From: Desulfobacterota bacterium AH_259_B03_O07
GTDB taxonomy: Bacteria > Desulfobacterota_D > UBA1144 > Nemesobacterales > CSP1-2
Direction of reading: 5' to 3'
DNA length: 33,835 bases
NCBI GenBank assembly: GCA_027717645.1
Contig: JALLOG010000024.1
Span: forward strand, 1 to 33,835
Of this stretch, positions 4,068 through 33,778 are shown piece after piece. Below the pieces are notes generated by a model. That model ran no database searches, was not told the origin of the DNA, and worked only from the letters and a program-made list of their open reading frames with translations. How positions within the stretch are numbered: the first letter of the stretch is position 1; each line of letters begins with the position of its first letter. The translations under genes were made by a program, and so were the position numbers.

Positions 4068-4748
4068 TCAAGTCCTCTTTCTCCATTCAAAGAAATAATC
4101 CGAGAGTTTATCCCTAAGATAAAGCCTCGCGCGATGTATTCTTGACTTAACCGCAGGAATACTCAGCTCCAAAATATTACCAACCTCTTCGTTTGATAAT
4201 CCCTCGACATCACGGAGTAAAAATACGATCTTATACTTTTCTGGAAGTTCGCCAATTGCCATCTCTATTTTTTCCATACCCTCTTTCCCAATCAGGTTGT
4301 AATCGGGGATGGAACTCCAATCTTTAATTGCAACGCCAATAAGATTTCCGTTTTCATCATATGGTTGATAATCCTCAAGGCTTAAATGCGTATCATATTT
4401 CTTTTGGTCCCTTAGATACATTAAACTTGTGTTTGTAGCTACTCTATATAGCCAAGTTGAGAATTTTGCCTCCTTGCGAAAGGAATACAATTTTTTCACG
4501 AGTGTGAGAAATACTTCTTGAAGGACCTCATCTGCATAGCGCGTATTATGTGTAATTCTCAACGCAAGCCTGTGAATCTTCTCACCATAGCGATTTACTA
4601 TTTCATTAAATGCACTTTCATCTTTGTCTTCTACAAATAATGCGACAAGCTCTTCATCGGACGACTGATCGTGATCTTGGAATGGAATACCAACTGGAAA
4701 TTGCATTCCCTCAAGATTTCTATCAGCGTCACTTAATTCAATATACAT
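4068..4748 (-). CDS. ECF-type RNA polymerase sigma factor
   Basis: The protein is a sigma-70-family factor of the extracytoplasmic-function type. Region 2 lies at about residues 40-110 (AFNEIVNRYGEKIHRLALRI, ADEVLQEVFLTLVKKL, FSTWLYRVATN). Region 4 is at about 165-215 (LPEKYKIVFLLRDVEGLSNE, then an HTH with AVKSRIHRARL). I place the start at the ATG at 4748, not the TTG at 4766 used by the ORF track, because GGGGAGGAATTATC before the ATG is a good ribosome site. The start at 4748 also leaves the 4767-4784 palindrome outside the coding region. This gives 226 residues. No anti-sigma gene is adjacent. Control seems to be transcriptional through the neighbouring TetR regulator. Confidence 0.93.
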   Translation of the reverse strand: MYIELSDADRNLEGMQFPVGIPFQDHDQSSDEELVALFVEDKDESAFNEIVNRYGEKIHRLALRITHNTRYADEVLQEVFLTLVKKLYSFRKEAKFSTWLYRVATNTSLMYLRDQKKYDTHLSLEDYQPYDENGNLIGVAIKDWSSIPDYNLIGKEGMEKIEMAIGELPEKYKIVFLLRDVEGLSNEEVGNILELSIPAVKSRIHRARLYLRDKLSDYFFEWRKRT

Positions 4749-6462: not shown

Positions 6463-7011
6463 GTGAAACTCCTCAAAGAAATTTCTGCTTCGTTTCTTTG
6501 GAGCGCCTACGAACAACTATTACTACGAGCCCTAGATCTTTACAGAGATGAAGGAATAGGAATACCCGATATGAGTTCACTAATGGACTTAGGGTTCTCA
6601 ATGGAGGAAGCAGAGGTTTTGGTGTCGCAACTCGAGTCAGAGGGTCTGAATCCTTCGGGTGACCCTTTTGCCGGAGAGTTAACTCTCACAAGTTTTGAAC
6701 GAATGACATTTCAAGATGCAATAGATGATTTTAATTCAATGATAGAAGAAGTGGCATCTGAGTTCGACATTCCACTTGTGGATATAAATTCCTTTCTCTC
6801 CACACTTAATAGTGAGGGTATTGACGGTTTTTCAGGGAGTTTTTTCCTGGTCGATTCCGAAAATACAACTTTTAGCCTCGATGGAATCCACCTTAATAAC
6901 GCTGGTTATGCCCTAGCCGCGAATGAATTTATAAAGGTCATGAACCAGTCGTTTGGGTTCAATATTCCGCTTTTAGAAACACAGCAGTTCGCAGGTCAGT
7001 ATGCTAATTAA
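6463..7011 (+). pseudogene. 5'-truncated SGNH/GDSL hydrolase remnant
   Basis: The C-terminal half matches an SGNH hydrolase: FSLDGIHLNNAGYALAANEF is block V with the catalytic Asp and His (DGxHxNxxGY). The N-terminal half of the family, including the GDS nucleophile Ser block and the block III Asn, is absent. The frame is closed by a TAA at 6451, 12 bases before the GTG, and no ribosome site is present. It is therefore best read as a decayed 3' fragment of a secreted lipase/esterase-like gene. Its start abuts the divergent membrane-protein gene, which suggests a rearrangement at about 6440. Confidence 0.7.
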
Positions 7012-7036
7012 ACCCTTGTCATCTACTCTAGGCAGT

Positions 7037-9462: not shown

Positions 9463-9957
9463 TCAACTCTCTCGCTTCTTGAGCAATTTCTTCTTTAGCC
9501 TTGTCTCTACTACTTCCGGAACCATCTCTTTGACTGAACCACTGAGTGATATTATTTGTTTAATCAAAGATGAACTGATGTGTGCATAGGCACTATCTGT
9601 AACCATGAACACTGTTTCGAGTTCCTTAAACAAAGTTTTATTTGCGAGAGCCATTTGAAGTTCATATTCAAAATCCGAAACGGTCCTCATGCCTCGTAGA
9701 ACAGTATTAGTACCGGCTTTTTTTACATAATCTACCAATAGACCCTCGAAACAATCTATTTTTACTTCTGGACGATTACGAAAAATTTCTTTGAGGATTT
9801 CTAACCTTTCCTGTAGTGTGAAGGTCGTTTCTTTTGCAACATTATGGGCCACAGCCACTATCACTTCATCGAAAACCTTTACTACCCTATCTATTATGTT
9901 CAGGTGACCTTTGGTAAAGGGATCGAATGAGCCCGGATAAATTACATAATTTCCCAT
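9463..9957 (-). CDS. coaD: Phosphopantetheine adenylyltransferase
   Basis: CoaD adds AMP from ATP to 4'-phosphopantetheine, the fourth step of coenzyme A synthesis. The nucleotidyltransferase signature YPGSFDPFTKGHLNII is at residues 5-20 (G and H of the TxGH-like motif present), and the C-terminal ISSSLIK motif is intact. I take the start at 9957, three codons inside the ORF track, because the rsmD stop and this ATG overlap as TAATG and an AAGGTG ribosome site lies six bases before. The result is 164 residues, the normal family length. The overlap implies translational coupling with rsmD. Confidence 0.96.
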   Translation of the reverse strand: MGNYVIYPGSFDPFTKGHLNIIDRVVKVFDEVIVAVAHNVAKETTFTLQERLEILKEIFRNRPEVKIDCFEGLLVDYVKKAGTNTVLRGMRTVSDFEYELQMALANKTLFKELETVFMVTDSAYAHISSSLIKQIISLSGSVKEMVPEVVETRLKKKLLKKRES

Positions 9958-10523
9958 TAAAAGCACCTTCTAAAATAACTAACCTTTGTTCCACCGAATG
10001 ATCTAGTAGTGCGAGAAAATCCTGGCGTGCTACCTGTTATTGGGTGTTCATGTTCGATAACTATCGACGTGCCAGATTCTACACAACCTTTTACGATATT
10101 TATGAAGTCCGGTACTCCTTTTTTATCATACAAGATATAGGGTGGATCGATAAAAACTATATCAAATTTGTATTCATTTTTAATGAGTCCTTTAACCGCA
10201 TTCTCATAATCATCGCAAATGAAAGTAGTTTTATCAAGAAATCCACATGAAGCGACGTTATCCCTAAGTATCTTGAATACATGTGGATTTTTCTCAATGA
10301 AAACAACTTGTGCGGCCCCTATGCTAAGAGATTCAATACCCAGACCTCCCGAACCTGCAAATATATCAAGTATTCTCAATCCACTAATATCACCAAGAGA
10401 GTCAAAGATTGATTTTTTTATTCTGCTGGTTGTGGGTCGAATCGTCCTACCTTTGGGAACCTTTAATTTTTTCCCTTTTATCGTGCCTGTTAGCACTTGC
10501 AACACAGGCTGATATAGTACCAT
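9957..10523 (-). CDS. rsmD: 16S rRNA (guanine(966)-N2)-methyltransferase
   Basis: RsmD methylates G966 of 16S rRNA using S-adenosylmethionine. The family hallmarks are all present: LTGTIKGKKLKVPKG and IRPTTSRIKKSIFDSL near the N-terminus, the SAM loop ILDIFAGSGGLGIESL, and the catalytic FIDPPY. I place the start at the ATG at 10523 because AAAAGGAG lies just before it; the TTG at 10541 used by the track is less likely. It is the first gene of a three-gene operon with coaD and an aminotransferase; rsmD-coaD adjacency is common in bacteria. Confidence 0.95.
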   Translation of the reverse strand: MVLYQPVLQVLTGTIKGKKLKVPKGRTIRPTTSRIKKSIFDSLGDISGLRILDIFAGSGGLGIESLSIGAAQVVFIEKNPHVFKILRDNVASCGFLDKTTFICDDYENAVKGLIKNEYKFDIVFIDPPYILYDKKGVPDFINIVKGCVESGTSIVIEHEHPITGSTPGFSRTTRSFGGTKVSYFRRCF

Positions 10524-10699
10524 ACCAACTCCTTTTATCAAAAGCGAAATTCTAACAATCTCAACTACTAATCTTATGTATAGTTTTACACAGTAGATAC
10601 AGTGTGATATTACACAAATGGGTAAAATAATTACTCCTTTTACCTACAAACTATCAATAACTTCTCATCAAGATTACAAATAATCATTTACCAATAAGA

Positions 10700-10715
10700 T
10701 GGCATAAATTTTGCA
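10700..10715 (+). promoter_or_regulatory. Sigma-54 promoter upstream of the PA2779-like operon
   Basis: TGGCATAAATTTTGCA matches the sigma-54 consensus TGGCACG-N4-TTGCW, with the invariant GG and GC and exact spacing. The predicted start is near 10727, giving a leader of about 305 nt before the first gene at 11032. A GTGT-N6-ACAC dyad lies about 90 bases upstream (10602-10615) and could bind an NtrC-type activator. The leader between 10727 and 11031 contains no gene I can support. The 5' part of the gap (10524-10690) also holds none. Confidence 0.72.
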
Positions 10716-11031
10716 CCTTCATTTGTGAAACTCATATCATAGAAATTAAGGAAATGATGAAATTAATAATATTCAGTCTCTTTGCTATAATTATAAGAAC
10801 AGGGTGTCCTTAATCATGGTAGGTTGTGATGGATGAAGAAACGTTGACTAGGGATCTCAACAGAGCAATCTTAAAACCACTATAAATGTTAGAATTGCAG
10901 AAAAATGGTTTGAGGGAAAATGTTTAATGACATGAATATATGGGTCTTATAAATTAAGTTTAACAAATCACTCTTTAAATATTTGAGCCAGATATTTTTT
11001 GATAATCTTAGATAATAAGGAGGCTGGATTC

Positions 11032-11436
11032 ATGATACTTTTAAAAAATAAAATCTATAAAATCCCAATCATAATTATAATATTTATTAGCTTCACACCT
11101 TTATCCCTGATCTCTAAAAGCGTGGAAGCCGCTATTGTGGGTTCACAAATGATTTCCACCAATGGGAGATCATATCTAAACAGAGAAATAAATGAAAAAA
11201 AGATTCGTAAGATGCTCGAGAATAAAATCGTAGTCGAAAAACTTAAGAGTTATGGACTTTCCGATGAAGAATTAGCTACAAAGTTAAAAAGCATGAGCGA
11301 CGAACATATTCATCAGTTGGCGGCTCTTTCTGACCGAATTCCCGCAGGGGGTAATGGTGCTGCAGCAGCAGCTGTAATTGTTCTGGTAGTTTTCGTCATA
11401 GCTATCATACTTCTTATAGTTTTGAGAAGGATTTAA
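11032..11436 (+). CDS. PA2779-family exported protein with C-terminal membrane helix
   Basis: The 134-residue protein has an N-terminal signal peptide or anchor, a helical middle (MLENKIVVEKLKSYGLSDEE, TKLKSMSDEHIHQLAALSD), then RIPAGGNG followed by an Ala/Val/Ile-rich transmembrane segment and a basic tail. This pattern is that of the PA2779 family (DUF6627). The start is the ATG at 11032, which follows AAGGAGG; the track's start at 10999 is a TTG with no ribosome site. The gene pairs with a PA2778-type C39 peptidase 24 bases downstream, a partnership known from Pseudomonas. The GG before a hydrophobic segment resembles C39 cleavage sites, so this may be the peptidase substrate; that is an inference. 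Confidence 0.85.
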   Translation: MILLKNKIYKIPIIIIIFISFTPLSLISKSVEAAIVGSQMISTNGRSYLNREINEKKIRKMLENKIVVEKLKSYGLSDEELATKLKSMSDEHIHQLAALSDRIPAGGNGAAAAAVIVLVVFVIAIILLIVLRRI

Positions 11437-11460
11437 ATTAGAAGTTTAGCGGGCTCAATT

Positions 11461-12021
11461 ATGCTTAAGTCGATGGGTTTATTTATAAATCTTGTTATTA
11501 TAAATAGCTCAATTTTATTACTCAGTTGTCATCAAAATCACTTCATCCGTGATGACATTTATAATTCAGATAGTGCAAAAACTATAGAGAATGTCCCTTT
11601 TGTTAAACAGAAAAATCAATTTTGTGGACCCGCGGCCATGGCATCAATCATGACATTCTTCGGTCAAGAAATAAGTCAGGAAGAAATTGCTAATGATGTT
11701 TATACTCCAAAGCTAAAAGGCGCGCTGATATCCGACATGGAAAATTTCGCGAAAGAGATGGGCTATGACGCTGAAACAATAAATGGTGATACTAGTGTTC
11801 TTTTTTCTCATATTGACCAGGGCATTCCAACTATAGTTCTAGTAGACCGCGGAAAGCTGTTTGTCAGCATTCCCCACTATTATGTAGTATATGGATACGA
11901 TAAGAGCAAGAGTACATTCATTATTCACACGGGGTTTGAAAGTAGTCGAGAAATTAAAATCTCACAACTTGAGGATGAGTGGACAAAGATGAACCGACTT
12001 ATGCTTATTGTCAAAAAGTGA
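11461..12021 (+). CDS. PA2778-type C39 cysteine peptidase lipoprotein
   Basis: A 186-residue protein whose signal peptide ends in a lipobox LLLSC (Cys 23), followed by a C39-like papain-fold peptidase. The nucleophile is in KNQFCGPAAMASIM (Cys 55) with the preceding Gln as oxyanion residue, and the His in IPHYYVVYGYD (His 139). The size is that of the peptidase domain alone. PA2778 proteins as I know them continue into a TPR domain, but here the TPR part is a separate lipoprotein whose GTG start overlaps this stop. The enzyme probably cleaves a partner in the periplasm or at the outer membrane, the best candidate being the PA2779-family product just upstream. Confidence 0.87.
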   Translation: MLKSMGLFINLVIINSSILLLSCHQNHFIRDDIYNSDSAKTIENVPFVKQKNQFCGPAAMASIMTFFGQEISQEEIANDVYTPKLKGALISDMENFAKEMGYDAETINGDTSVLFSHIDQGIPTIVLVDRGKLFVSIPHYYVVYGYDKSKSTFIIHTGFESSREIKISQLEDEWTKMNRLMLIVKK

Positions 12022-12608
12022 CCTGGAATCTTTGTAAATTAATAATATTATTAATTCCATTATCAAATTTAGCTGTTAGTTGTGGCTACTTGTCACCACT
12101 CCTACTAATAAAAGACCCTTTAACTCCTCAGGAGCACAATAACCTCGGTGTAGCATATGAAAAAGAAGCTAAATATGATCTGGCCATTAAACAGTATAAG
12201 AAGGCTTTTGACATGAACAGCGACTTGATTGTTCCATTGGTTAACATAGGTAATGCATATCTTAAACGGGGGAATTACTCGGAAGCTGAAAAATATTATT
12301 TAAGGGCATTAGATAAGGATGAATACAATTTAGAGGCATCAAACAACCTTGCATCCATATTTTTGATTACCGAGAAAGATTATGAAAAAGGCCTTAAAAT
12401 AATTATAAGTGCAGTGGCTAACAATGAGGGCTTTCCGGTATACGCCATGGATACAATAGGCATCTTGTATTCTCGATTGGGTAATATGGATAAAGCAAAA
12501 TTTTTCTTGATTAAAGCATGTGAAAAAACAGATTACGATAACTCATTTTCAGAGGAAATTAATAAACACCTTCAGGAGATAGGGGAGAAGGGATGTGCAA
12601 AGTATTAA
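12018..12608 (+). CDS. TPR lipoprotein, split-off C-terminal part of PA2778
   Basis: The 196-residue protein has its own signal peptide with a lipobox LAVSC (about residue 22 from the GTG), then about four tetratricopeptide repeats (HNNLGVAYEKEAKYDLAIKQ, LVNIGNAYLKRGNYSEAEKY and so on). I choose the GTG at 12018, which forms a 4-base GTGA overlap with the C39 gene; the track's ATG at 11979 would bury the signal peptide. Overlap implies coupled translation. It probably holds or presents partners for the peptidase. Its end overlaps the convergent pepF stop by four bases. Confidence 0.85.
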   Translation: MTWNLCKLIILLIPLSNLAVSCGYLSPLLLIKDPLTPQEHNNLGVAYEKEAKYDLAIKQYKKAFDMNSDLIVPLVNIGNAYLKRGNYSEAEKYYLRALDKDEYNLEASNNLASIFLITEKDYEKGLKIIISAVANNEGFPVYAMDTIGILYSRLGNMDKAKFFLIKACEKTDYDNSFSEEINKHLQEIGEKGCAKY

Positions 12609-25552: not shown

Positions 25553-26397
25553 TTACTCTTTTCCCTTTGTAGTTAGAGCCCTTAATTTAAGCTTTGTAGC
25601 TTCTGTTTCAACCTGTGGAATTTGTGAATAACCATTATGGCTCAAAGAATTTCGAACCCGCTTTAAAAGGTTTTTCCTGCTTATATTACCACCTGCATCA
25701 CGCATATGTTTACAAAAATAAAACGAAAATGCACCGTTATAATCACCATTAATGTAAGCATCGGCAGATGTCTGATCAGATCTACATCCAGCCCAAAGAA
25801 TGTGATGAACAGTGCTCCTATTCTTGGAACGGAATCCTCTTGTGGGCTTCAATTCATCTTCCTCACCCTCTACTCGAGATTCAATATCTACAGGTGGGGG
25901 CAGAAATCTTACTAACGTGGGATTCTCGGGACCCAATTCCGGTGGACGTCCCAGATTAACATTTCTTAACCCAGTACCTGAATGACAGGAATCAAGGAAA
26001 ACTTCTAACAAAACATTTTTGGGAAGCTTCTTAAAAACTGAATTAAGATTGTCATCTGTTATGTAAGCACCATCCCAATTCATATCATAAGGACAAATTA
26101 ATTCATCCATATTGTCCCTAAGCTCGTCTCCATCCCTGTCACGAATCTGAGAACCATGCCCCGAAAAGTGAAATACAAGGAGTCTCCTGGTTTCGCTTTC
26201 TTAACCATCCATTTCAGCCTGTAGAGTATGTTTTCCTTAGTAGCCCTATCGTCAACCAAAACACGTATATCTTTATTAGTGAAACCAAGATATGTTTTCA
26301 ATATATTCCTCATATTCGTAACGTCATTCAAACAACCCCGAAGATCACTTATACCCTTATAATCATTTATACCTACCAATAATGCCCTTTGAGCCAT
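25553..26397 (-). pseudogene. Caspase-like (C14) protease split by a 1-nt frameshift
   Basis: Two ORFs (26098-26397 and 25553-26110) together form one caspase-family (metacaspase-like p20) protein. The first carries RALLVGINDYKGISDLRGCL, the second LEVFLDSCHSGTG with the catalytic Cys. Between them the frame fails at about 26170: frame one reads PGDSLYF then nonsense, and the next frame reads HFSGHGSQIRDRDGDEL, the catalytic His motif, joining MDELICPYD. One missing C in TATTT(C)CAC explains this. GGAGGGG before the ATG shows a real start. The gene may be dead, an assembly error, or use a -1 shift. The EEP nuclease gene lies 39 bases downstream. Confidence 0.88.
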
Positions 26398-27796: not shown

Positions 27797-28066
27797 CTAA
27801 CTATGACGTTCCAAGGTTACTGATATTTCGGTCTCTGCAACTTGAGGGTCAGCCTCAAGCACGGGCAAATTATTGACATCAATTGTGCCGATTATTTTAT
27901 TCTTAATAGTTTTCTCGATTGAAAGACCTAGCGCTCGAAACCGTTCAAGACTCGCCTGATCGGGGGCTGAGATATTAAGCGCTACAAGAACCTTAACAAT
28001 TCCTTTTTTTTCAATCTGTCCTAAATTCGATCTCCTAAGAATGTCTTTGAGGTTACTAGGCATCAC
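27797..28066 (-). CDS. Small prodomain-like companion of the subtilase
   Basis: This 89-residue protein overlaps the S8 protease stop by four bases, so it is translated with it. From about residue 23 it has an I9-like pattern: KVLVALNISAPDQASLERFR, then IIGTIDVNNLPVLEADPQVA and EISVTLERH. The protease's own N-terminus has the same order (VTVLVDASKIQDVEKHV, STMLVHTPRSRLSDLASLSS, EASTRLEPH). The likeness is in hydrophobic pattern, not high identity. I infer a free-standing subtilisin prodomain-type inhibitor or chaperone. It lacks a signal peptide, like the protease. Confidence 0.78.
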   Translation of the reverse strand: MMPSNLKDILRRSNLGQIEKKGIVKVLVALNISAPDQASLERFRALGLSIEKTIKNKIIGTIDVNNLPVLEADPQVAETEISVTLERHS

Positions 28067-29949
28067 GGTTCTATAGTCAGCAATCTTTCAACATTAAGCT
28101 TACCATAGCCCCATCTTGGATTCCAACAAGGAGTCGTGAAACCATCTTGTCTGGTCGACTTAATCAACCGACGCTTTGCCTCCGCCCAATCAATAGAAGG
28201 GGCCTTTTCGAGAAGAAGAGCCAACACTCCGGTGGTATATGGAGCGGACATACTAGTGCCCTGCAAGGCAACGTATTCCATATTCTTCAATCGCAACCAA
28301 GAAGGCATTTCTTCGAGCGAGGCATCGTCAGATAGAGCTGACACTAACCACTGCCCGGGTGCAGCCACATCTGGCTTATTATGACTATCACGGGTAGGCC
28401 CTGGACTACTAAAATATGAAATGTCTTCAAGATTAATTGCATCAAGACTAGCGGGTAAATCATCATCGTGAGAGTCCCAACTATTCCGTGTAGCATATGA
28501 GGCAACCGTAATTGCAGAAAATGCGGTCCCCGGCATACCTACCAAGTGGGATCTGGTATGAGCATTTGTGAATCGGCCCATTGCTCGTTGTACGATCCAA
28601 GCGTGAACAGAACCTACCTCGACACCATTTTTACCTTCTGTCCTGTCCTCCTCAGCTATTACACTCCAACCAGTAAGCCATTGTATCTCGGGAACACTGA
28701 TGATTAAAAACGTAGTGGTATTATCACCGCTGTAAATAGCTCGCTGATGACTGCTCTGGACCAGGAAAACTCCACGATCAATTTCCATTTCTCCGTCCTG
28801 AGGCGGTTCAAATAGCTCCCCATTCGGACTCCGCAGTCTGATATTTATATCATCCTCTTTCTGATGCCAGACCTGTACAAACAACAAGCCCACCATACTA
28901 CCTTGAACCATCCTTGAATTAAGTTCAAAGTCAGCAACCCAGCGTGCTGGTGAGGGCTCATCCTTGAGCATAACAGTACTTGCATGCATTTGTGAACCAC
29001 CCTCGTTACCCGCGGACACTACGACTATTCGACCACTATCTGATAGTTGATCAATGGTCCGCTCGGTAATGCTGCTGCCATCATGACCTCCGAAGTGCCC
29101 ACCCAGGCTGAGGTTAACCACGCATGGCTGATCGCGCTGATCCGCAATATTGAATATATGTGCTACACCAGCAGTAATATCTGCCGAGTCAAAAGTCGTT
29201 TTTACAATTGCAATATCCGCTTCAGGAGCCACGCCCTCGAACCTATTGTTGGGCGATCCCCGCCCATTGCCCACAGCAATTCCCGCAACATGCGTACCAT
29301 GACCTATCTCATCCGGTGATTCCGCGGCATGGCCCACATTTATTTGCGCCTCATCATACTGTTTATCACCCACCTGATCAAAGTAGTTCACAATTCTGGT
29401 TTTATTACCCGTCTTGAATGCTAGATGGGATGCATCGATACCTGTATCTACAATCCCAACGAGAACGCCATTACCTAGCTGGGATACCGCGCGATTCCCC
29501 GCCCTCACTAGTCCTGTAGAAACGTGAGCTAAGTCACAGTGAGGTTCAAGCCTGGTACTGGCTTCTACGTAGTTTACCGAAGAAAGGGAGGCGAGGTCGC
29601 TGAGTCGTGATCTAGGGGTATGAACTAACATAGTCGATTGGGTAATCATCTTAGTTTTGCCTTTCCAACTCTTTACGTGTTTTTCGACATCCTGAATCTT
29701 ACTCGCGTCAACTAGAACTGTTACTAGATCTCGGTTAACTAAATTCCTAACAGCTGTTGGCGATATCTGTGCTGCAAGCGACTGCATACCAACTGGGAGA
29801 TCTGTTATTGAGGGGGATTTTACTCCTACCCCACTCAAAGCAGTTTCTGGAGTGGTTTTCAGTGTGCGTAAGCTGGCTTTTAAAGCTCGCTTCGTTTCTC
29901 TTTCTGCATGTTTCGCCACTAGAACAAGCAAAGGATCAAGTCTAGACAA
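28063..29949 (-). CDS. Cytosolic subtilisin-like serine protease (S8)
   Basis: A 628-residue protease with the complete S8 triad: Asp 168 in VGIVDTGIDASH, His 217 in EIGHGTHVAGIAV, Ser 566 in QGTSMSAPYTTG, and oxyanion Asn 315 in VSAGNEGG. Residues 70-140 look like an I9 prodomain. A beta-rich insert of about 120 residues (335-455) sits between oxyanion and Ser motifs, recalling Csp-type S8 proteases. There is no signal peptide. The start is a TTG at 29949 overlapping the stop of a 26-residue basic ORF; a GTG at L-V-L-V-A is an alternative. The companion gene follows with a 4-base overlap. The absence of export suggests an intracellular target. Confidence 0.9.
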   Translation of the reverse strand: MSRLDPLLVLVAKHAERETKRALKASLRTLKTTPETALSGVGVKSPSITDLPVGMQSLAAQISPTAVRNLVNRDLVTVLVDASKIQDVEKHVKSWKGKTKMITQSTMLVHTPRSRLSDLASLSSVNYVEASTRLEPHCDLAHVSTGLVRAGNRAVSQLGNGVLVGIVDTGIDASHLAFKTGNKTRIVNYFDQVGDKQYDEAQINVGHAAESPDEIGHGTHVAGIAVGNGRGSPNNRFEGVAPEADIAIVKTTFDSADITAGVAHIFNIADQRDQPCVVNLSLGGHFGGHDGSSITERTIDQLSDSGRIVVVSAGNEGGSQMHASTVMLKDEPSPARWVADFELNSRMVQGSMVGLLFVQVWHQKEDDINIRLRSPNGELFEPPQDGEMEIDRGVFLVQSSHQRAIYSGDNTTTFLIISVPEIQWLTGWSVIAEEDRTEGKNGVEVGSVHAWIVQRAMGRFTNAHTRSHLVGMPGTAFSAITVASYATRNSWDSHDDDLPASLDAINLEDISYFSSPGPTRDSHNKPDVAAPGQWLVSALSDDASLEEMPSWLRLKNMEYVALQGTSMSAPYTTGVLALLLEKAPSIDWAEAKRRLIKSTRQDGFTTPCWNPRWGYGKLNVERLLTIEP

Positions 29950-30022: not shown

Positions 30023-30328
30023 GACTTACCTCCTTTATTAGAGATCGTTTCCATTGAACAAAGTAATAATTTAATATTCCAAATAATATAGTATTATAGA
30101 CTCAAAAGCTAGTAGCCCTTTCGATTTAGATTACCCATCTACTACCATTTGTACCAAAACCAAAACATCATTGTCAAGAGATTTTTCGTTTATCGATCGT
30201 AAGAGAAACTTTAGGTGATCAATCATATGGTTAGCAATTTCAAGATTTAAATTTCTTTCATAGATTTGAATCACGAAAAAATTTAACAATAATTACTTTA
30301 GAAATAATTGAAGCGACTGAGATTGCGG

Positions 30329-31408
30329 ATGCCTAAAGTCAACAAATTGAAAGAGCCAGATGATATACTTCTAAAGCAGGTTTTCGATTCACTTCCTGAT
30401 GGAATTATCATTCTAGATAAGTCATTTTCGGTAATTAATCTAAACGAAGCGGCTCAGAATATTTTTAATATATCAAGAAAAAAAGCAGTGAATAAAGAAC
30501 CTTCTACATTTCTTCCAGAAGAAATAGAAGAGACCGCAAAGAAAGCATTAAGCGAAGAAAGAACCATAATGGAAGAAGAAAGCAATCCAAGATTAAGGGG
30601 TGGAGAGAGAATATCAGTCCAAACCATAGCATCACCATTATTTTCAGATAAAGGGGATCTCCAGGGTGTGATTTTACAAATTAAAGACCTCGCCGCGTCG
30701 AAATTTGTTAACGAAAGAACCCTTCAACAACTATCGAGTTCAAGCTTTGAAGGATTTTTCATTGGACTGGCGCACGAGTTAAAGAATCCATTGAGTGGTA
30801 TTAGGGGTGCTGCTCAGATACTATCGAACGATGCAGAGGATAGGGAAGCTAAAAAGTGCGCTGAGATAATTATTAAAGAAGCCGACAGACTTCGAGATCT
30901 AATTGATAAGTTTAAACGACTTGAGCCGTCTGCTAAAGACTCCTTTGAGTTAGTCGATATACATGAAATTCTTACTGAAATCACCTTTCTAGAATCGAAG
31001 TCCAGTAACCAAAATGAACTCAATATAATACAGAATTTTGATGTGTCCCTTCCTCCTATATCTGGCGACGAAAACTCACTTAAGCAGGTATTTTTAAACA
31101 TTATAAAGAATGCTAAGGAAGCAGGTAGCTCTAAGGTAACTATAGAAATATCAACGAGGTGGATTACGGACTACAAGTTCAAGAATGAAAATGCCATTTC
31201 GATAGATATTAAGGATAATGGTGCAGGAATATCGAAAGAAGCTATAGAAAAAATATTTACCCCCTTTTATACTACTAAGAAAGAGGGAACCGGTCTTGGC
31301 CTGTTTCTTGCGTATCAAATTATAGCAAAACATGGAGGAGCCATTTTGGTAGAAAGCGAGAAAGGAAAAGGAACAACGTTTCGAGTGTACCTCCCAATAA
31401 AGAAATGA
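30329..31408 (+). CDS. ntrB: Nitrogen-regulation sensor histidine kinase NtrB (GlnL)
   Basis: The soluble kinase has an N-terminal PAS domain (DSLPDGIIILDKSFSVINLN, about residues 20-120), an H-box GLAHELKNPLSGIRGAAQIL with the phosphorylated His, and a HATPase domain (N box FLNIIKNAKEAG, G1 DIKDNGAGIS, F FTPFYTTKKEGTGLGLF). No membrane helix is present, as in NtrB, which is controlled by PII. It overlaps ntrC by four bases. The ATG at 30329 is chosen over the TTG at 30308; the ribosome site is weak. With glnB about 2.4 kb downstream, it is the nitrogen-status relay. Confidence 0.92.
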   Translation: MPKVNKLKEPDDILLKQVFDSLPDGIIILDKSFSVINLNEAAQNIFNISRKKAVNKEPSTFLPEEIEETAKKALSEERTIMEEESNPRLRGGERISVQTIASPLFSDKGDLQGVILQIKDLAASKFVNERTLQQLSSSSFEGFFIGLAHELKNPLSGIRGAAQILSNDAEDREAKKCAEIIIKEADRLRDLIDKFKRLEPSAKDSFELVDIHEILTEITFLESKSSNQNELNIIQNFDVSLPPISGDENSLKQVFLNIIKNAKEAGSSKVTIEISTRWITDYKFKNENAISIDIKDNGAGISKEAIEKIFTPFYTTKKEGTGLGLFLAYQIIAKHGGAILVESEKGKGTTFRVYLPIKK

Positions 31409-32841
31409 ATAAAAAGATTTTAGTCGCAGATGATGAAGAGAGTATCAGGTGGGTATTAGGAAAATGCCTAGAGAAAGCTGGCTACCGCGTCGAATACGCT
31501 GTAAATGGTTCAGAGGCTCTCGAAAAATCCACTACAGAAAATTTCTCTCTTACAATACTAGATATCACTATGCCAGAATTGAGCGGACTTGAAGTACTTC
31601 ATGAAATAAGACTAAGAGGAATGGACCTTCCCATCCTTATTATCACGGCTCAGAATACAGTTAAAAACGCAATTGATGCAATGAAAAAAGGCGCTTACGA
31701 TTATATTGCAAAGCCATTTGACTTAGATGAAGTTAGACTCACTGTCGAAAGAGCAATAGAGGGCCATGAGAATGCCAAAAAGCTCAATTCGCTCAAGGCT
31801 ACACTCCATGAAGTCAATGAAAAGCAACATGGTATAGTTGGCAAATCTTCTTCCATGCTTAAAATCTATAAAACTATTGGCCGCATAGCAGATAAAGATT
31901 TGACAGTTCTAATTCAAGGTGAAAGCGGGACAGGTAAAGAGCTAATAGTTCGCGCAATACACATTAATAGTCCAAGAAAGGAAGTTACGCTTGTATCCGT
32001 AAATGTTAACGCTCTTCCAAAAGGGTTACTAGAGAGTGAACTCTTCGGTTATGAAAAGGGGGCCTTCACAGGAGCAACCATCAGAAAGCAGGGAAGATTC
32101 GAAGAGGCAAGTGGAGGCACACTTCATCTTGACGAAATTGGTGAAATGCCATTAGATCTTCAAACAAAGCTTTTAAGGGTACTAGAAGAAAAAAAATTCT
32201 ATCGGCTAGGTAGTGAAAAGCCGGATGATATAGATGTCCGAGTTATTGCCTCAACTAACAAAAAATTGGAAGACGAGGTAGAGGCCGGAAACTTCAGACA
32301 AGACCTATATTACAGACTAAATGCGATAACAATAGAGGTCCCACCGCTAAGAGAAAGAAAAGAGGATATTTCCCTTCTTCTAGAATATTTCCTAGAAAAA
32401 TACTCAATAGAACTCGGAATAGGGGAAAAAACAATTACCGATGAAGCCAAAGGGATAATGCTTGACTATAGTTGGCCAGGAAATGTAAGAGAATTAGAAA
32501 ATACAATCAAGCGCATACTTGTTCTATCCTCTGATATGAATATAACATCTGACATTCTCATTGATGCTGCGCCTTATTTAAAAGGTCTAGAAAAACAAGA
32601 TCCATTCAGTGACTTATTCACCTCAAGGTTAAAGAAATTAATTAATGATAATAAGGAAAACGCATATGGTGGGGTGTATGATTTAGTCATTAGAAAGGTT
32701 GAAAAACCCTTAATCGAAGAAATTTTAAAAATATCTAAGGGTAATAAGAAAAAGGCTGCAGAGATATTAGGGATAAACAGAAATACACTTTCAAAAAAGA
32801 TAGAAGAATATGGTATTAATTTTAAACATATACTTCAATAA
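31405..32841 (+). CDS. ntrC: Sigma-54-dependent response regulator NtrC (GlnG)
   Basis: The 478-residue protein has a receiver (VADDEESIRW, phosphorylated Asp 53 in ILDITMPELSG, Lys in YIAKPFDL), an AAA+ domain with Walker A GESGTGKE (172-179), GAFTGA loop (219-224) and LDEIGEMPLDLQTKLLR, and a Fis-type HTH (KGNKKKAAEILGINRNTLSK). GAFTGA contacts sigma-54, so it is an activator of sigma-54 promoters such as those at 33763 and perhaps 10700. ATGA overlap with ntrB. It ends 10 bases before convergent rnc. Confidence 0.95.
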   Translation: MNKKILVADDEESIRWVLGKCLEKAGYRVEYAVNGSEALEKSTTENFSLTILDITMPELSGLEVLHEIRLRGMDLPILIITAQNTVKNAIDAMKKGAYDYIAKPFDLDEVRLTVERAIEGHENAKKLNSLKATLHEVNEKQHGIVGKSSSMLKIYKTIGRIADKDLTVLIQGESGTGKELIVRAIHINSPRKEVTLVSVNVNALPKGLLESELFGYEKGAFTGATIRKQGRFEEASGGTLHLDEIGEMPLDLQTKLLRVLEEKKFYRLGSEKPDDIDVRVIASTNKKLEDEVEAGNFRQDLYYRLNAITIEVPPLRERKEDISLLLEYFLEKYSIELGIGEKTITDEAKGIMLDYSWPGNVRELENTIKRILVLSSDMNITSDILIDAAPYLKGLEKQDPFSDLFTSRLKKLINDNKENAYGGVYDLVIRKVEKPLIEEILKISKGNKKKAAEILGINRNTLSKKIEEYGINFKHILQ

Positions 32842-33762: not shown

Positions 33763-33778
33763 TGGTATGTTCTTTGCA
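33763..33778 (+). promoter_or_regulatory. Sigma-54 promoter of glnB
   Basis: TGGTATGTTCTTTGCA carries the invariant GG and GC with sigma-54 spacing (-24 TGG..., -12 TTGCA). It is 28 bases before the glnB ATG. With the enhancer palindrome upstream, and ntrBC on the same fragment, this is a textbook nitrogen-control promoter. Confidence 0.85.

Follow-up and report, generated by a model that had tools for sequence, protein, structure and literature searches.

Members of the PA2779 and PA2778 protein families occur across several phyla, and one PA2779-family gene, in Pseudomonas stutzeri, is among the most highly expressed genes of its genome in the conditions tested: it is one of 39 genes whose expression ranks in the top 3% under all four of them (PMC10155442). 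In the literature searched, we found no paper on the function of PA2778 or PA2779; what we located consists of this expression screen and of a transposon insertion in the DNA between PA2779 and PA2780 (PMC3985676). Cleavage by C39 peptidases has been reported at GG and, in some cases, at GA (PMC5557850), and these peptidases include FapD, a periplasmic C39 protease whose own target is unsettled (PMC5557850).

We examined a PA2779/PA2778 locus in the genome of an uncultured member of the Dadabacteria (3.78 Mb in 712 contigs). The window, by which we mean the whole stretch of DNA that was analyzed, is 33,835 nucleotides long; outside the locus it also encodes a caspase-domain (Peptidase_C14) protein (25553-26110, reverse strand) less than 4.5 kb from a subtilase (Peptidase_S8; 28063-29949, reverse strand). 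An earlier note on this DNA had proposed an envelope processing system made up of a substrate, a peptidase split from its TPR part and a scaffold, switched on from a sigma-54 promoter by an NtrC-type activator. The explanation that we consider best overall is that of a split PA2779/PA2778 module in which the C39 peptidase would cleave PA2779, with a sigma-54 promoter that would belong to a lost neighboring gene, and we put the probability of this explanation as a whole at roughly 0.55.

The operon and its split peptidase

The first gene of the operon (11032-11436, forward strand) encodes a protein of 134 amino acids that scored 82.8 bits in a profile search with NF033919, about twice the curated cut-off of 40 bits, and thus belongs to the PA2779 family (DUF6627, PF20332). 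A PA2778-type C39 peptidase gene lies beside it. This second gene (11461-12021, forward strand) encodes a C39 peptidase lipoprotein (PF03412/PF13529) that matches positions 2-144 of NF033920, the 255-position model of the PA2778 family cysteine peptidase, and the third gene (12018-12608, forward strand) encodes a TPR lipoprotein that matches positions 164-251. Because the stretches matched are complementary, we read genes 2 and 3 as the halves of PA2778 in the form of separate proteins. Their scores were 102.7 bits for the C39 gene and 28.7 bits for the TPR gene, each by itself below the 150-bit cut-off of the model, and no single protein joins C39 and TPR parts at a score above it. The pair is a split PA2778 in its predicted working, and not an equivalog as NF033920 defines one. 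Reading of the genes bore out the earlier description of two lipoproteins joined by a GTGA overlap (12018-12021), each with its own lipobox (Cys codons at 11527 in the C39 gene and 12081 in the TPR gene). A lipobox was missing in 2 of 16 Dadabacteria C39 proteins.

The split had also been presented as a special feature of this locus, and that part did not hold up. Wherever both genes could be read in Dadabacteria, PA2779 is followed by distinct C39 and TPR genes that adjoin or overlap. Aquificota and Syntrophales relatives have the same layout (Hydrogenothermaceae, L090 and L091; Syntrophaceae/Smithellaceae, L092-L094), as do other Deltaproteobacteria records (L095, L098). Fused, one-protein forms of PA2778 were seen in the Betaproteobacteria Azoarcus sp. 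KH32C and Eleftheria terrae, with scores of about 300 bits. Judged from these sequences, separate peptidase and TPR genes are the common form in the sampled lineages outside the Betaproteobacteria, with PA2778 as their fusion. Given that the split is the norm in its own lineage and is present in other phyla, it is no oddity. The three-gene locus is an ordinary, widely shared cell-envelope operon, the form that the PA2779/PA2778 module takes in Dadabacteria.

Within the Dadabacteria, PA2779 and the C39 peptidase have identical presence sets, each being found in the same 17 of 58 genomes. One of the genomes (G001) has two PA2779 copies across contig breaks (L049, L050, L051, L052), with C39 and TPR genes after one copy only and unrelated genes after the other.

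The GG hinge as a candidate cleavage site

PA2779 is laid out as a signal peptide, a helical domain, a PAGG hinge, a C-terminal transmembrane helix and an RRI tail. The GG just before the hydrophobic C-terminal helix, which the earlier note had likened to that of a C39 substrate, is indeed there (residues 106-107, codons at 11347-11352, forward strand), and sequence comparison makes it a candidate C39 cleavage site. The hinge is nearly invariant: in the Dadabacteria, P104 and G106 do not vary and G107 is replaced once, by Ala (G005), while the outgroups have VGG, AGG or AAG (AG in L095). The departures from GG are thus GA or AG, both pairs of small residues, and the conserved uncleavable residue that had been named as counting against a cleavage site is absent. 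A structural model of PA2779 (pLDDT 65, low confidence) places the PAGG stretch in a coil that leads into the terminal helix (109-133).

The model of the C39 protein has a pLDDT of 88, and its best solved match in Foldseek is the ComA peptidase domain (3k8u; TM by target 0.86, 2.2 A), which it also matches in sequence. Neither Cys55 nor His139 varies, so that the protein combines a C39 fold with the catalytic Cys/His. The third catalytic residue appears to be unusual, since His or Arg is found near the place usually taken by Asp. An invariant His156 (codon 11926-11928) lies near the usual position of the DP-motif Asp, which is absent; Dadabacteria and Aquificota have His there, and the two Betaproteobacteria have Arg.

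We propose that PA2779 would be a small inner-membrane protein of bitopic topology, whose helical domain lies in the periplasm and whose C-terminal helix follows the PAGG hinge, and that the C39 protein would act as a periplasmic cysteine peptidase lipoprotein, kept near its substrate by the translationally coupled TPR lipoprotein. Cleavage at or near GG would then free the periplasmic domain of PA2779 from its membrane anchor. The co-occurrence of the two genes and the conservation of PAGG lend circumstantial support to PA2779 as a substrate, and a peptidase-substrate pair of PA2779 and C39 is plausible. In these respects, the linked module is consistent with the envelope processing system of the earlier note, less its sigma-54/NtrC switch. 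The wider proposal, that PA2779 and the C39 and TPR lipoproteins may form an uncharacterized system for C-terminal processing in the periplasm, with a double-glycine peptidase, not part of an ABC transporter, that frees its dedicated partner from a C-terminal membrane anchor, we advance tentatively, with odds of little better than one in three.

A competing view is that PA2779 is no substrate at all, GG being a structural hinge, and that the C39 and TPR proteins act on some other protein or that the C39-like protein is a non-proteolytic scaffold. The missing DP-motif Asp, with His or Arg near its place, would fit such a view, as would the replacement of GG by GA (G005) and by AG (L095) and the second PA2779 copy of G001, which has no adjoining C39 gene. 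However, PA2779 and C39 co-occur exactly, the catalytic Cys and His are invariant, and GA is itself among the sites at which C39 peptidases reportedly cut; we give this view a real chance, although one somewhat short of even. Cleavage of PA2779 by C39 remains our preferred reading, and co-occurrence, a separable peptidase and TPR part and a conserved GG hinge together offer a simple biochemical handle on the function of the family.

A sigma-54 element and its likely owner

A perfect -24/-12 sigma-54 element (TGGCATAAATTTTGCA, matching the pattern TGGCAYRNNNNTTGCW) lies at 10700-10715 on the forward strand. The genome has rpoN, as do 43 of the 46 genomes searched (this one included), and it contains 25 perfect sites where about 2.7 would be expected from base composition; the reversed pattern gave 0. 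The element is thus a consensus match in an rpoN-positive genome in which such sites occur above chance. The genes downstream of sites elsewhere in the genome include pilin-like, cytochrome-like and hemerythrin-like ones, as judged by eye from their translations, and where the downstream gene is clear, at 14 of these other sites, the start codon lies 42-107 nt from the site (median, 64). The element at 10700-10715 lies 332 nt before the start of PA2779 and 54 nt before a short open reading frame at 10754-10813.

Two overlapping imperfect dyads (10588-10605, ACACAGTA-GA-TACAGTGT, and 10602-10615, GTGTGATATTACAC) lie farther upstream, at a position typical for an activator site. The dyad described earlier therefore exists, but as many turned up in 31-41% of shuffled versions of this stretch, and we rejected it as an activator site. 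At 30308-32841 (forward strand), the window encodes a histidine kinase with a PAS domain and, after it, a response regulator of the NtrC type that carries a sigma-54 activation domain; nothing links this pair to the site at 10700-10715. A sigma-54-like site with one mismatch (TGGTATGTTCTTTGCA) lies at 33763-33778 (forward strand), close to the contig end.

Comparison with relatives bears on whose promoter this is. In the 420 nt that precede PA2779, none of the 17 sequences scanned from relatives has a sigma-54 site, and at 11 outgroup loci none turned up in as much as 450 nt before the gene. Since the site is missing there in relatives, we conclude that the sigma-54 promoter is no feature of the operon, which shows neither the usual distance nor the conservation in orthologues expected of a sigma-54-regulated one. 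The earlier note had suggested just such a survey of orthologous clusters and had named lack of conservation as the outcome that would overturn its proposal; sigma-54/NtrC switching as a property of the operon is accordingly not supported. Its promoter stands as an element, with a perfect match, but is not borne out as the driver of the operon, being 332 nt away and absent upstream of PA2779 in relatives.

Several relatives do carry a sigma-54 site on the rsmD side, before a gene whose product is a Gly-rich lipoprotein or a small secreted protein. In the window, rsmD (16S rRNA methyltransferase; 9957-10541, reverse strand) was identified from translation and synteny as the divergent neighbor, and the order rsmD-coaD-aminotransferase is kept in most relatives. 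The consensus before the rsmD-side gene is perfect in G039 (L061, site at 4453 and gene at 4511) and G033 (L065, site at 6958 and gene at 7014), and degenerate sites precede such a gene in G008, G019, G001, G005 and G006. Between the lipoprotein gene and PA2779, G008, G019 and G033 have a hairpin stronger than those of all 30 shuffles; G039 has a less strong one, equaled in 1 of 30 shuffles, and G005 has none. No terminator-like hairpin was found between the short reading frame and PA2779 in the window, and read-through from the sigma-54 promoter into the operon is therefore possible.

Upstream of PA2779 itself, the relatives share a different sequence. The motif CTTTGT-N-TTTWAATAT (CTTTGT...ATCRGTTTWAATATAT) lies just 5' of the gene in 8 of 12 family-f3 relatives (L056-L065), against 0.016 expected in shuffles, and its CTTTG part is present in all 12; the motif looks promoter-like and is distinct from sigma-54. 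The window has a sigma-70-like promoter candidate near PA2779 (ATGACA-N17-TAAATT, 9/12; 10927-10955, forward strand), which is weak and by itself not above shuffles.

The reading frame at 10754-10813 (forward strand) has 19 codons (MMKLIIFSLFAIIIRTGCP), and its translation resembles a lipoprotein signal peptide. It is probably what remains of a gene for a lipoprotein or secreted protein. DNA and peptide alignments with the lipoprotein genes of relatives gave no significant similarity, so this assignment rests on position, spacing and signal-peptide character. When 10680-10930 was searched as a repeated or conserved element, its own genome and six family genomes returned only itself and one 26-base match (G006:C203), which lacks the TTGC element, precedes an unrelated gene and is incidental. 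Rfam gave nothing at gathering level for the leader; a sub-threshold match to a eukaryotic snoRNA was discarded.

The most economical reading is that the lipoprotein gene was deleted and that its promoter and a signal-peptide stub were left behind. The sigma-54 switch is real, and it most likely belongs to this decayed neighbor: the promoter would be a functional sequence of a separate rsmD-side transcription unit, brought upstream of PA2779 as deletion shrank the gene to its stub, and it would reach PA2779 at most via read-through. If instead the promoter drives the PA2779 operon in this genome, through a 5' leader of about 300 nt with a short leader peptide, one can point to the perfect match of the site, to a genome that has rpoN and a strong excess of sigma-54 sites, to the lack of a terminator-like hairpin from the site to PA2779 and to the NtrC-type activator encoded in the window. 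We consider this unlikely, given that the distance is 332 nt, against 42-107 nt at the 14 other sites, that relatives and outgroups lack the site upstream of PA2779, that the site in relatives serves the lipoprotein or secreted-protein gene and that the dyad is not above chance. Less probable still is that the promoter has nothing to do with the PA2779 operon and serves a small RNA or a functional membrane peptide of 19 residues (10754-10813). The 54-nt spacing is good, an AAGGA-like ribosome site is present and the peptide is hydrophobic, but the searches of this genome and the six family genomes returned nothing similar beyond the 26-base match, Rfam offered no gathering-level match and full-length genes occupy this place in several relatives. 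Ownership by the lost lipoprotein gene thus remains the reading that we favor, and it carries a caution, in that a perfect regulatory element 5' of an operon may belong to a vanished neighbor.

Comparison with known systems

The peptidase domains of ComA and PCAT (PDB 3k8u, 5xe8, 6mpz) have their fold and catalytic Cys/His in common with the C39 protein described here. However, they are cytosolic parts of ABC transporters that cut N-terminal leaders, whereas the GG considered here is C-terminal and predicted to be periplasmic, and the usual Asp is apparently replaced. FapD, of the Pseudomonas Fap amyloid system, is like the protein described here a periplasmic C39 peptidase free of an ABC transporter, with a proposed GG/GA target in an operon partner (PMC5557850), although the FapF-type outer-membrane pore and amyloid genes of that system are absent from the PA2779 operon. 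The GlyGly-CTERM/rhombosortase system (PMC3237569) shares the C-terminal tripartite layout of Gly motif, transmembrane helix and basic tail, but it pairs its target with a rhomboid protease, whereas a soluble C39 lipoprotein would do the processing here; no rhomboid gene lies beside the PA2779 operon.

The closest likeness is to the families after which we have named the locus. Gene 1 shows no essential difference from the PA2779 family (NF033919/PF20332, DUF6627), having the same length, signal peptide, GG hinge, terminal helix and C39 neighbor. In comparison with the PA2778 family (NF033920), both halves are matched and the gene order after PA2779 is the same, although here they are two translationally coupled proteins instead of one.
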